Positions 53,987 through 59,434 of a stretch of 64,000 bases of DNA are shown here, piece after piece. Numbering within the stretch: position 1 is the first letter of the stretch; each line of letters starts with the position of its first letter. The stretch spans positions 62,148-126,147 of the forward strand of contig PMTF01000016.1 in NCBI GenBank assembly GCA_003167415.1. The letters run 5' to 3'. Under the pieces are notes generated by a model. That model was given only the letters and a program-made list of their open reading frames with translations, did no database searches and was not told the origin of the DNA. The stretch comes from Acidimicrobiaceae bacterium. GTDB taxonomy: Bacteria > Actinomycetota > Acidimicrobiia > Acidimicrobiales > RAAP-2. Both the position numbers and the translations under genes were made by a program.

Positions 53987-54310
53987 ATGGACACCACCGC
54001 AAGCACCAAGAAGCAGTCCGAAAAGAAGTTCGACAACGAGAACGCCAAGGCACAAGAGTTGATCTTGGACGCAGTCAAGCAGTCCCAGGAAGCGACCCTG
54101 CAATTTGTGCAGACGTGGTCAGAAGGAGTCACCAAGCTGACGTCGAACCTCCCCGAGTTGCCGAAGCTGCCTGAATTCACCGCACTGCCCAAGGCCGACG
54201 AGGTGTCGGAACAGTTCTTCGGCTTTGCCCAGAAGCTCATGACCGCTCAGCAGGAGTTCGTCAAGAAGCTCATCGCCGTGCTGCCCAGCCAGGACGTCAC
54301 CGCAAAGTAA
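53987..54310 (+). CDS. Phasin-like PHA granule protein
   Basis: 107 residues, all helix-forming: Lys/Glu-rich N-terminus, then ILDAVKQSQEATLQFVQTW and FGFAQKLMTAQQEFVKKLI as two amphipathic helices separated by a Pro-rich linker (NLPELPKLPEF). The start has AAAGGAG about 8 nt upstream, the strongest ribosome-binding site of the locus, which fits an abundant granule-coating protein. The neighbouring PHA synthase has a similar N-terminal segment. A hairpin terminator follows the stop. Confidence 0.82.
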   Translation: MDTTASTKKQSEKKFDNENAKAQELILDAVKQSQEATLQFVQTWSEGVTKLTSNLPELPKLPEFTALPKADEVSEQFFGFAQKLMTAQQEFVKKLIAVLPSQDVTAK

Positions 54311-54318
54311 CGAATTCG

Positions 54319-54362
54319 TCGCTCCTCCCAGTTCCCTTCCCCCGGGGACCTGGGAGGAGCGA
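54319..54362 (+). terminator. Hairpin terminator after the phasin gene
   Basis: TCGCTCCTCCCAG pairs with CTGGGAGGAGCGA (13-bp stem) around a CG-rich loop that may pair further. It separates highly expressed phasin from the regulator and synthase genes. No long T tract. Confidence 0.75.
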
Positions 54363-54377
54363 CCATATCTCATGTGC

Positions 54378-54407
54378 TTGACGTCCAGAGCGCGTGACTT
54401 GTATAGA
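54378..54407 (+). promoter_or_regulatory. Promoter of the XRE-type regulator gene
   Basis: TTGACG (54378-54383), 18-nt spacer, TATAGA (54402-54407), with the same upstream GTGCTTGAC as the phasin promoter. Confidence 0.6.
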
Positions 54408-54452
54408 GTGCTCTCGCCCACGAATGCGTGAGACCGATATCAGAGGAGAGTC

Positions 54453-54839
54453 GTGGCCACCACCGACGAGACCGAGTCCACGACGCCAAACAATCCCCGA
54501 CAGATGCTGGGAGAGTTCATTCGTGTGCAGCGACAAATGGCCAACCTTTCACTTCGACAGCTCTCGGCGCTGACCGAAATCTCAAACCCGTATCTGAGCC
54601 AAGTCGAGCGGGGGCTTCACGAGCCCTCCATTCGGGTCCTCAAGTCGATCGCCAACGCGCTCAACGTGTCTTCCGAAATTCTGTTCGAGCAGGCCGGTCT
54701 CTTCACGAGCACTGAAGATCCGGGCAGCGAGGCGACCGAGGCCGCCATCCGCACAGATCGCCGCCTCAGCGAAGCCCAGCGCCACGCCTTGCTGGGCGTG
54801 TATCGCAGTTTTCTCGAGACCAGCGAGGAAGGGGATTGA
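54453..54839 (+). CDS. XRE-family regulator in the PHA locus
   Basis: 128 residues. The helix-turn-helix covers about residues 20-75 (SLRQLSALTEISNPYLSQVERG), typical of HTH_3. The C-terminal part is short and without a ligand domain, so sensing may be through an unseen partner or the polymer surface. The GTG start has GAGGAG upstream. Its place between phasin and synthase, and the shared promoter elements, suggest it controls these genes, as PhaR does in other lineages, though it is not of the PhaR family. Confidence 0.85.
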   Translation: MATTDETESTTPNNPRQMLGEFIRVQRQMANLSLRQLSALTEISNPYLSQVERGLHEPSIRVLKSIANALNVSSEILFEQAGLFTSTEDPGSEATEAAIRTDRRLSEAQRHALLGVYRSFLETSEEGD

Positions 54840-54913
54840 CGGTCCCCGCCGGAGCGGCTAAGTCCTCTTCGCGTCGCAGTGGCCAAAAGATCTCAAGAAA
54901 TGTCTCAATGCTG

Positions 54914-54941
54914 TGCATACCAAGCATTTGGTGTGTAAAGT
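54914..54941 (+). promoter_or_regulatory. Putative promoter of the PHA synthase gene
   Basis: A -10-like TAAAGT (54936-54941) with GTGCATACC and AGCATTTGG upstream; AGCATTTGG is also found in the phasin promoter. The -35 is weak. Confidence 0.4.
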
Positions 54942-54984
54942 CGGCGCCAGTGTCTGCGACCGATTCGAACTGAAGGGCCAAGCA

Positions 54985-56886
54985 ATGGCGAGTGACGAGG
55001 GCGATCCGATCGACGATGCAGCGACGCAGTTTCAACGTCAGTTGCTCGGCGCGATCGAGGCGACCCAGGTAGCCACATCATCGTTCGTGAACGCGTGGTT
55101 CCAGGGAGCGACCCAGGTAGCCACCGCCTTTGCCGACCTCACCCAGCCCGCCCCCGATGGCGCCCTCGAGCCCACCCAACTGATGGCGTTCATGAGTGAG
55201 TTGTTCGCCGCCCAGCAAGAGTTCATCACCGATCAAGTCACGCAAGCTGATCCGTTGTCGTTTTTGGGATCTCTCAAGGCGGCCCAAGCCGCGGCGTTCG
55301 CCAAGCCTGACGAGGTCGCCGCCGCGACCAGCCGCCTGGCGATCGGTCTCGACGCCGCGGTGCGAGCGATCATCGCGCGCGCCAACGGTGACGACGTGGC
55401 GTTGCCCGTGCGACCACACGACGGCGACAAGCGCTTCAACGATCGGGCCTTCACTGAGAACCCCATGTTCGCCGTGCTCGAGCAGCAGTACCTGCTCGGT
55501 TGTCAGTACTTCAACGAACTCCTCGACGCCGCCGAGCTCGAGGGGATCGAGGACGCCAAAGCCCGCTTCGCCACCAAGTTCGTCTTGGACGCCTTGGCTC
55601 CGACCAACACCCTCTACGGCAACCCGGCCGCGTTGCGCGAGGCGGTGGACACCGGCGGCGAGAGCCTGGTGCGCGGGGCGAAGAACATGCTCGAGGACCT
55701 GAGTAACAATGGTGGCTGGCCGAGCCAGGTCGACAGCACGGGCTTCGAGGTCGGCGTCAACCTCGCCGCGACACCCGGAGCCGTCGTTTTTCGCAACGAG
55801 CTCATCGAACTCATCGAGTACCAACCACAGACCGAGCAGATCTACGAAGTGCCCATGCTCTTCTGCCCGCCGTGGATCAACAAGTACTACATCATGGACT
55901 TGGCGCCGGGTAAGAGCCTGATCGAATGGGCGGTGGGCCACGGGCACCACTGCTTCGCGATCAGCTACCGGAACGCCGACGAAAGCATGCGCGACCTGGG
56001 CCTCGCGGAATACCTGCACCTGGGCCAGCGCGAGGCCGTGCGCGTGATCCGCGAGATCACCGGGTCGCGTCAGGTCAACACGGTCTCGCTCTGCCTGGGA
56101 GGGACGCTGAGCGCGATCGCCCTGGCGCGCGAGGCCGCGGCCGGCGAAGATTCGATCAGGTCGGCCACGTTTCTCAACACCAACACCGATTTCAGTGTCC
56201 CCGGGGCACTGGGTCTGTTCACCGACGAGTCCACGATCGCCGGGCTCGAAAAGCAGATGGCCCGCGACGGCTACCTCGAGGCTGAGTCCATGGCCCACGT
56301 GTTTGACCTCCTTCGGGCCAACGACCTCGTCTTCCAGTACGTCGGAAACAACTGGCTGCTCGGCAAGCAGCCCGCCGCCTTCGACTTGCTCGTCTGGAAC
56401 AACGACAGCACGCGAATGCCCGCGAAGATGCACTCGGAGTATCTGCGCTCGTGCTACCTGAACAACGAGTTCGCGCGCGGCACCTTCGTGATCGACGGGT
56501 TCACCCTGGACCCCAAAGCGGTGGACGTCGACACCTACGTCGTGGCGGCGATCAACGACCACATCGTCCCGTGGGTCTCGGGTTACAAGACCGCGCAGAT
56601 GTTCTCCGGTCCCAACCGCTTCGTCCTCTCGACCCAGGGCCACATCGCCGGTGTCGTTAATCCACCGAGCCTCAAGGCACAGCATTGGACCAACGACGAG
56701 CGGCCGACCGACCCCGAGCAGTGGAAGGACTCGGCGCAAATGGTCGACGCCACGTGGTGGATCGACTGGGCACAGTGGATCGGCACACGGGCCGGCGACC
56801 TCGTCGATTCACCCTGGGTCTTGGGCGCCGCTGATTACCCGCCCCTGGAGCCAGCTCCCGGCGACTACGTACGGGTGCGCGCGTGA
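54985..56886 (+). CDS. phaC: Polyhydroxyalkanoate synthase with phasin-like N-terminal extension
   Basis: 633 residues from the ATG at 54985, which lies downstream of the putative -10. The C-terminal two-thirds is a PHA synthase: nucleophile Cys370 in VSLCLGG, Asp525 in AINDHIVPW and His553 in TQGHIAG, with WNNDSTRMPAKMH typical of class I. The first about 90 residues do not belong to the usual synthase N-domain; QVATSSFVNAWFQGATQVA and FAAQQEFITDQV align with the adjacent phasin. It polymerises (R)-hydroxyacyl-CoA onto granules. The next gene overlaps its stop. Confidence 0.93.
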   Translation: MASDEGDPIDDAATQFQRQLLGAIEATQVATSSFVNAWFQGATQVATAFADLTQPAPDGALEPTQLMAFMSELFAAQQEFITDQVTQADPLSFLGSLKAAQAAAFAKPDEVAAATSRLAIGLDAAVRAIIARANGDDVALPVRPHDGDKRFNDRAFTENPMFAVLEQQYLLGCQYFNELLDAAELEGIEDAKARFATKFVLDALAPTNTLYGNPAALREAVDTGGESLVRGAKNMLEDLSNNGGWPSQVDSTGFEVGVNLAATPGAVVFRNELIELIEYQPQTEQIYEVPMLFCPPWINKYYIMDLAPGKSLIEWAVGHGHHCFAISYRNADESMRDLGLAEYLHLGQREAVRVIREITGSRQVNTVSLCLGGTLSAIALAREAAAGEDSIRSATFLNTNTDFSVPGALGLFTDESTIAGLEKQMARDGYLEAESMAHVFDLLRANDLVFQYVGNNWLLGKQPAAFDLLVWNNDSTRMPAKMHSEYLRSCYLNNEFARGTFVIDGFTLDPKAVDVDTYVVAAINDHIVPWVSGYKTAQMFSGPNRFVLSTQGHIAGVVNPPSLKAQHWTNDERPTDPEQWKDSAQMVDATWWIDWAQWIGTRAGDLVDSPWVLGAADYPPLEPAPGDYVRVRA

Positions 56887-57668
56887 GGGGTACTTCGACC
56901 TTGGTCGACACTCGAGTAATTGACGTCGGAGGGATCGCCGTCCACGTGCGGATCGAGGGTGAAGGCGAGCCAGTTCTCTTGTTGAGCGGCCTCCTCCAAC
57001 CTCTTGAGTGCTGGGACCCGTTCGTGACGTCCCTGGGCGAGCGACGTATCGTCCGCTTCGACGCCCCGGGCGTCGGCCGGAGCGCGACGCCGATGTTTCC
57101 ACCTTCAATGGTCTCACTCGCAACGATCGCCGCGGCGGTCTTGGACGCCGCGGAGATCGACGAGGCGGACGTGGTCGGTTTTTCTTTGGGTGGAGCGCTC
57201 GCCCAGCAGTTTGCGCACATGTCACCGACGAGAGTTCGCCGGCTGGTGCTGATCGCGACCTCGTGCGGACTCGGCTCGACTGCCGGGCGATGGGATTCGC
57301 CTGACGCCTGGACCGCACCAGCGACGGTCGCGACCACGGGCCGGTTGTCCTCGCTCGGGTGGCATTCGCTGGCCTTCGTGACGTGGTCGAGCGTCCCCTT
57401 TCTTGGAAGTCTCACGCAGCCCACCCTCGTTATCTGCGGTCGCGATGACGTAGTGGCGCCCCCGGCGAACAGCCGGGTGCTGGCCTCGCGCATCCCTCAC
57501 GCCCGGTTGGTCACTCTCGCGGCCGACCACGACATCCTTCAGTCGGAACGCGCAACCGAACTCGCGCACATCGTCGAGGATTTCTTGTGCCGTCTCGACT
57601 CCGACCCTGACATCGATCCCTTCTTGGGTCGACAGGCCCCGCGCACTTCTTCAACCACCAACACCTAG
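56883..57668 (+). CDS. Alpha/beta hydrolase, possible intracellular PHA depolymerase
   Basis: 261 residues. GFSLGG contains the nucleophile Ser, GRDDVV the acid and ADHD the His. The N-terminal LLLSGLLQPLECWDP and FDAPGVGRS resemble the intracellular PHA depolymerases of pseudomonads (PhaZ), but the same features occur in general esterases. The GTG start overlaps the phaC stop, so expression is coupled. The coupling favours a PHA role. Confidence 0.78.
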   Translation: MRGTSTLVDTRVIDVGGIAVHVRIEGEGEPVLLLSGLLQPLECWDPFVTSLGERRIVRFDAPGVGRSATPMFPPSMVSLATIAAAVLDAAEIDEADVVGFSLGGALAQQFAHMSPTRVRRLVLIATSCGLGSTAGRWDSPDAWTAPATVATTGRLSSLGWHSLAFVTWSSVPFLGSLTQPTLVICGRDDVVAPPANSRVLASRIPHARLVTLAADHDILQSERATELAHIVEDFLCRLDSDPDIDPFLGRQAPRTSSTTNT

Positions 57669-58589: not shown

Positions 58590-58693
58590 GTGTTCGCCTC
58601 GCGACCTTCGCGATGGACGCAAGAGACATTGGTAGCGACACAACTCGTTGCTCGTCGGACGTTCCTTCACTAAGTTGGTGCAGGGGTGGCAAA

Positions 58694-59434
58694 ATGAGCG
58701 AGGCAAAAGTAGCTCTGGTGACCGGCGGAACCCGCGGCATCGGGCGCGCGATCACGTTGGACCTGGCCGAAAGCGGGGTTCACGTTGCGGCGGGTTATTT
58801 ATCAAATGGAGACGCGGCCCAAAAGCTGGTCGACGAAGCGCGTTCAAATGGCTGGTCGGTAAGCGTGCACCAGATGGACGTCAGCAGTCCCGAGGACTGC
58901 GTCCGCTTCGCCAACGAGGTGATCGAGGCCCAGGGCCAGGTTGATTACCTAATCAATAACGCCGGCATCAATGTCGATCGCACCGTTCGTCGGATGACGA
59001 TTGACGACTGGCACAGCGTCATGCGGGTCAACGTCTCCGGGTGTTTCTACATGATCAAGGCAGTCATCGAGCACATGGTGGAGCGAAAGTCGGGACGAAT
59101 CGTCAACATCAGTTCCATCATCGGTCAGACCGGCAACGTGGGCCAGGCCAACTACGCGACCTCCAAGTCCGGGCTGTTCGGCCTGACAATGTCGCTGGCC
59201 CAGGAACTCGCCGGCAAGGGCATCACCGTCAACGCGGTCGCCCCGGGATTCATCAGTACTGACATGCTGGCGTCGGTGCCTCAGAACGTCTTGGACGGGA
59301 TCGTCGCGCGTATTCCCGTCGGCCGGCTAGGCCATCCCGACGAGGTGGCGTACGCCGTGACCAATCTCCTCAGTGATCGGGCGGCTTACATCACGGGCGC
59401 GGTAATCCCGGTCAACGGTGGGCTGGACATGTAG
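58694..59434 (+). CDS. phaB: Acetoacetyl-CoA reductase
   Basis: 246 residues. The NADPH motif TGGTRGIGR, NNAG in LINNAGINVD, Ser in ISSIIGQTG and Tyr-Lys in NYATSKSG are complete. The FYMIKAVIEHM region and NVGQANYATSKSG match PhaB rather than the fatty-acid FabG, though the two are close. It makes (R)-3-hydroxybutyryl-CoA for PhaC. The ATG at 58694 is the start of homology; the frame upstream is non-coding. Confidence 0.88.
   Translation: MSEAKVALVTGGTRGIGRAITLDLAESGVHVAAGYLSNGDAAQKLVDEARSNGWSVSVHQMDVSSPEDCVRFANEVIEAQGQVDYLINNAGINVDRTVRRMTIDDWHSVMRVNVSGCFYMIKAVIEHMVERKSGRIVNISSIIGQTGNVGQANYATSKSGLFGLTMSLAQELAGKGITVNAVAPGFISTDMLASVPQNVLDGIVARIPVGRLGHPDEVAYAVTNLLSDRAAYITGAVIPVNGGLDM

Follow-up and report, generated by a model that had tools for sequence, protein, structure and literature searches.

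The open reading frame at 54985–56886 of the window, the 64,000-nt stretch of Acidimicrobiaceae DNA analysed here, almost certainly encodes a natural fusion, a PHA synthase of class I type that bears a phasin-like module at its N-terminal end. The 633 aa protein starts with ATG and is made up of the phasin-like module (residues 9–85, positions 55009–55239), an ordinary class I N-domain (residues 88–147, positions 55246–55425) which begins at ADPLSFLGSLKAAQ and is common to unfused relatives, and PhaC_N with the catalytic alpha/beta-hydrolase domain (55426–56883). The gene order from 53987 to 56886 is a free phasin-like gene (53987–54310, 107 aa, referred to as type-1), an XRE/Cro-type helix-turn-helix regulator (54453–54839) and then the synthase. 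All of the window features described are on the forward strand.

The phasin-like module and the synthase that carries it

The synthase assignment is based on several searches. The PhaC_N (PF07167) score of 203.3 bits exceeds the cut-off of 23.7. The best NCBIfam model is TIGR01838 (class I) with 577.9 bits, which is below its cut-off of 622.65; the class II and class III models give 474.2 and 100.8 bits. The best sequence matches among solved chains are PhaC proteins (5xav, 6k3c, 9knj, 5hz2 and 5t6o), and a fold search with the synthase also places solved PhaC chains at the top, 9knj first. Residues C370, D525 and H553, presumably the catalytic Cys, Asp and His, do not vary across 30 aligned sequences (the window and 29 of 80 related PhaC loci). 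The PhaC box of class I synthases is G-x-C-x-G-G; the motif at 56086–56103 reads S-L-C-L-G-G, with a Ser in place of the first Gly. The window synthase has PhaC_N, the catalytic domain, the invariant Cys/Asp/His and the ordinary N-domain in common with class I PhaC (Cupriavidus necator, Chromobacterium, Aeromonas caviae; full-length structure 9knj), but it differs from these by about 75 extra phasin-like residues at its front.

A sequence-only reading of this DNA had proposed that approximately the first 90 residues of the synthase align with the protein encoded at 53987–54310, and this is borne out. BLASTP of the free protein against synthase residues 1–150 gives 36.6 bits and an E-value of 8e-9 as a single comparison, with 24 of 80 positions identical (30%) and phasin positions 15–92 lying on synthase positions 9–81. 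The Smith-Waterman score is 93, which none of 5000 shuffles of either sequence reached (means 28–29, maxima 58 and 61), and the reversed control scores 29. When a profile of 74 free proteins is compared with a profile of the 11 fused modules, the probability is 97.8 with an E-value of 6.7e-13 (again a single comparison), and the reversed control yields a probability of 0.2 and an E-value of 0.25. A synthase-free profile, grown only from frames shorter than 330 residues and set against 153 frames of at least 560 residues, selects at E ≤ 10 only the 11 fused synthases, nine of them at E < 1e-4.

Free-only profiles match the window's own module weakly, with E-values of 0.024 to 0.16 over four rounds and 1.2 in another. 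L021, a near twin of the window synthase, is also weak when taken alone (E = 0.31–2.9 against the synthase-free profile). Since the direct pair and the orthologues nevertheless match, the window's module is, as judged from these alignments, a divergent member that is recognised through its neighbour and its orthologues. Within the module a 17 nt sequence, GCGACCCAGGTAGCCAC, is found twice, at 55060 and 55108 (55060–55124), encoding the peptides EATQVAT and GATQVAT, a possible internal duplication.

The module is an addition to the ordinary class I N-domain, which stays in place behind it. From 'ADP.SFLGSL...' onward the sequence is the ordinary N-domain present in fused and unfused synthases. 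With automatic start choice, the nearest unfused relatives (L010–L016) have about 87–101 residues ahead of PhaC_N and six fused synthases have 147–149. In the other five (L004–L007 and L017) the automatic start landed within the module, and earlier in-frame starts exist at 149 or more residues ahead of PhaC_N. When 70 unfused loci are aligned to the window synthase, 63 begin at residue 80 or later and 7 at residues 46–71. No significant match to the module was found in 74 unfused PhaC N-termini (the 70 loci of the collection and four plasmid-borne proteobacterial sequences). The best unfused scores, each of about 5.5 bits, are E = 0.078 with the free profile and E = 0.017 with the fused one; the latter comes from L140, a Cupriavidus plasmid synthase. 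The sequence-only reading had held the usual class I N-domain to be different, as these counts confirm, and the segment does not prove to be that N-domain along its whole length, which that reading had named as the outcome that would speak against it. An internal start that would give a PhaC of normal length is also unlikely, because Met67 and Met70 of the window are missing from the corresponding columns of 9 of 11 fused relatives.

It is thus highly improbable that the likeness is one of chance or composition between two helical segments, or that it is just the usual class I N-domain. The module sequence is helical and Ala/Gln-rich, and the weakness of the window's own module against free-only profiles could be taken in the same sense. 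Against this, the shuffles and the failure of the reversed controls speak against chance and composition as the source, the absence of a significant match in the unfused N-termini speaks against the normal N-domain, and the synthase-free profile picks out fused synthases only among the long frames.

Distribution, origin and selection

The segment is present in 11 synthases of the 81 PhaC loci compared (the 80 related loci and the window). In the window's family, 17 of 172 genomes have a PhaC, and 14 of these are fused, all within the window's genus, a group of soil and peat actinobacteria; ten of the 14 seem to be the same as loci L002–L009, L017 and L021. A free copy lies 0.7–1.3 kb upstream of the fused phaC in every one of the 14 genomes, and the copy of G076 (locus L009) is broken up over different frames. 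Unfused PhaC occur in three genomes of the family, G145 (also of the window's genus), G002 and G006, and are distant, at 38–40% identity. The fused named examples are Acidimicrobiaceae MAGs with isolate names that mostly refer to palsa, bog or fen.

In samples of 298 genomes from the order and 396 from the phylum, a search for further fusions gave, the window's genome aside, matches only in frames of less than 400 residues; these searches scored only the best 9–13 candidates per genome, so a weak fusion could be missed. Several frames were considered and rejected as fusions. Within the 396/1337-residue frame (L146) lies a free-size gene read in an overlapping frame, those of 205 and 257 residues are apparently the free genes of L029 and L031, and the 222-residue frame (L148) shows a free-size protein. 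The 275-residue frame (L128, over 1501–1713), from another family of the phylum, carries a phasin-like protein behind a long Ala/Lys/Gln repeat of the AAKEQ type and no synthase. Searches of open-licence papers brought up no natural phasin–PhaC fusion, as judged from titles and the beginnings of abstracts and from portions of PMC5658603, PMC10867992 and PMC9049629.

Of the 13 fused loci examined, 11 have two free phasin-like genes, type-1 and type-2, ahead of phaC; only the type-1 gene is present in the window and L021/L116. The type labels follow gene order, except that L114 and L115 were labelled by sequence. In a tree of the modules, 13 of 13 fused modules form one clade (support 100/95), and these together with 12 type-1 free phasins form a clade (99/97) apart from type-2, which disfavours the type-2 phasin as the source of the module. 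The type-1 proteins of the window and L021 join the fused clade (95/91) and not the other type-1 proteins. The tree is built on 77 columns with a midpoint root, so its finer branching is unsure; three domain rows shorter than 60 residues (the L009 type-1 fragment and two L012 fragments) are left out, and a further free member, L064, is outside the set. In the PhaC tree, which covers 11 of the 14 fused synthases (G081, G094 and G102 left out), all 11 form one clade (1.0); its sister group is made up of seven unfused synthases (0.976), and a further four unfused ones come next (0.999). Both trees fit a single gain of the module, and one duplication of a type-1 gene followed by one fusion would explain the two together.

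The module shows dN/dS of 0.11–0.25 in 7 of 7 pairs (the pairs share sequences), which argues that it has been kept by selection. For the pair L007–L017 the raw counts are 37 replacement and 30 synonymous changes in the module, yet dN/dS is 0.25. The catalytic part of the window–L116 pair has a dN/dS of 0.50, inflated by an assembly gap and a frame slip in L116, and for this reason only the N-terminal parts of that pair were used.

The free protein family and its locus

The free family is likely, although not certainly, a phasin family, as judged from gene position and profile matches. A member is found in 64 of the 81 PhaC loci. Phasin_2 (PF09361) is the phasin family most often matched, with 16 of 50 members at E ≤ 0.1 (a set chosen by eye from 73 listed rows), and the best match, L055, has 24.9 bits and lies at the cut-off of 24.9. 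Among known phasins the nearest counterparts are Phasin_2 proteins and, putatively, GA14 of Rhodococcus ruber; like these, the members are small, predicted helical and encoded near phaC. The window's free protein and module, however, match no phasin model at E ≤ 1 in the kind of profile search advised by the sequence-only reading; its naming of the neighbour as a phasin is probable for the family by locus and by borderline Phasin_2 matches, and not by a match of the window's own proteins.

Other searches gave no matches. No PF09361 match above cut-off occurs in 246 genomes of the phylum sample. Five proteobacterial Phasin_2 stretches compared with the free profile reach a probability of 0.8, less than the 2.6 of the reversed control. 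A fold search with the model of the free phasin-like protein finds no PDB match at E ≤ 10, and neither the PHROGs search nor a plasmid search with one free member (L055) gives a match. Free phasin-like proteins of other Acidimicrobiia (L026 5577–5885, L032 5347–5655 and L034 5582–5890) end in PVAKKS or PVTKKS tails, which resemble the lysine motifs that PhaM uses to attach granules to the nucleoid (PMC9049629, available part).

The free protein is predicted to have a long helix and, after a loop, a second one (H3–53 and H70–98), with a mean pLDDT of 69. The module is predicted to have helices at 9–52 and 63–88 with low confidence (pLDDT approximately 36–52); six of the 30 rows supplied for the synthase prediction bear the module. 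In the same model, confidence is good for the ordinary N-domain and for most of the catalytic domain. The structural comparison proposed earlier gives a similar predicted helix-loop-helix layout for the two proteins; the helices of the module are of low confidence. The amphipathicity of synthase helix 1 is clearly above shuffles (22 of 1000 as high), whereas synthase helix 2 (357 of 1000) and the phasin helices (58–114 of 1000) are not clearly above them.

The window's genome (96.6% complete) has one PhaC and, at E ≤ 1, one free phasin-like gene. The synthase gene is followed by an alpha/beta hydrolase (56883–57668) whose nearest model is a PHA depolymerase (TIGR02240, 121.8 bits, cut-off 250.6) and by an acetoacetyl-CoA reductase-like SDR, PhaB-like (58613–59434; TIGR01829, 290.8 bits, cut-off 302.1). 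Because these two genes follow phaC the region looks like a PHA locus, with both scores below the cut-offs of the nearest models. The hydrolase starts inside the phaC stop codon, and the 4-base overlap suggests translational coupling. The XRE-type regulator (HTH_3, 6e-13) matches no named model above cut-off, but tblastn finds a homologue in 62 of the 80 PhaC loci, so it seems to be a regulator widespread at PHA loci in Actinobacteria.

Possible roles of the fused module

The reading we prefer, with a probability of roughly 0.55, is that a duplicated phasin-like gene was fused to phaC and that the resulting synthase is self-anchoring and assembles together with the free phasin. A small phasin-like gene upstream of phaC would have been duplicated and one copy joined in frame to the start of phaC, in a single event, in an ancestor of the PHA-making members of one Acidimicrobiaceae genus. 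Such an in-frame fusion would account for the domain order of the synthase: a phasin-like module of two helices at the start, then the ordinary class I N-domain, then the catalytic domain. The module would then bind the nascent polyester surface, bundle with the free type-1 phasin, or both, which would hold the synthase on the granule and draw the coat protein to the site where polymer emerges. We infer, at slightly better than even odds, that the module tethers the synthase to the polymer, docks the free phasin through its helix pair, or both; pairing fits the presence of the free copy upstream in all fused genomes. More tentative is the idea of a self-coating synthase, in which the synthase's own phasin-like hairpin would form a pre-granule scaffold by bundling with the free type-1 phasin.

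The main alternative is that the free protein is chiefly an activator or subunit of the synthase, like PhaM or PhaE/PhaR, that the fusion makes the activator permanent and that polymer binding is secondary. It is the main one because PhaM of C. necator, which has phasin-like properties, directly binds and activates PhaC1 (PMC9049629, accessible text). The occurrence of the free family at most of the PhaC loci and its borderline match to Phasin_2 also favour this. On the other hand Phasin_2 is still the phasin family that the members match most often, and the free copy, which we take to be needless for a pure activator, is retained in all 14 fused genomes; we regard this explanation as unlikely, though a serious one. 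Less probable again is that the module chiefly helps the synthase to dimerise or to form larger assemblies and plays no part at the granule surface. N-terminal regions of class I PhaC are reported to be important for dimerisation (PMC10867992, in part) and the module is predicted helical, but it groups with a free protein still encoded next door, and the ordinary N-domain is also retained.

Known systems resemble the proposed self-anchoring synthase in part. PhaM is likewise a phasin-like protein that acts on the synthase (PMC9049629, partial text), but it is a separate 32 kDa DNA-binding protein, whereas the module of the window is covalently part of the synthase and lacks the PAKKA motif. 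The class III and class IV synthases are two-part enzymes. PhaR is the partner protein of the class IV synthase. A partner of the synthase is common to class III (PhaC–PhaE, the latter according to part of PMC9049629), class IV (PhaC–PhaR) and the system described here, but in the present case the catalytic protein comes closest to class I and has the partner fused to it.

What role the N-terminal part of PhaC plays is still called elusive (PMC10867992, portion available). Fused and unfused orthologues are both at hand for comparison, so the question can be tested by removal of the module or by its transfer to an unfused synthase. The fusion also provides a ready-made template for controlling granule size or for protein display on polyester beads. 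If the synthase is self-coating, synthesis and coat assembly would be coupled from the first chain, a mode of granule nucleation distinct from PhaM-type scaffolds. A coat-type protein seems to have become joined to a PHA synthase once in evolution and to have been kept under selection, and the module may serve these bacteria as a built-in granule anchor.
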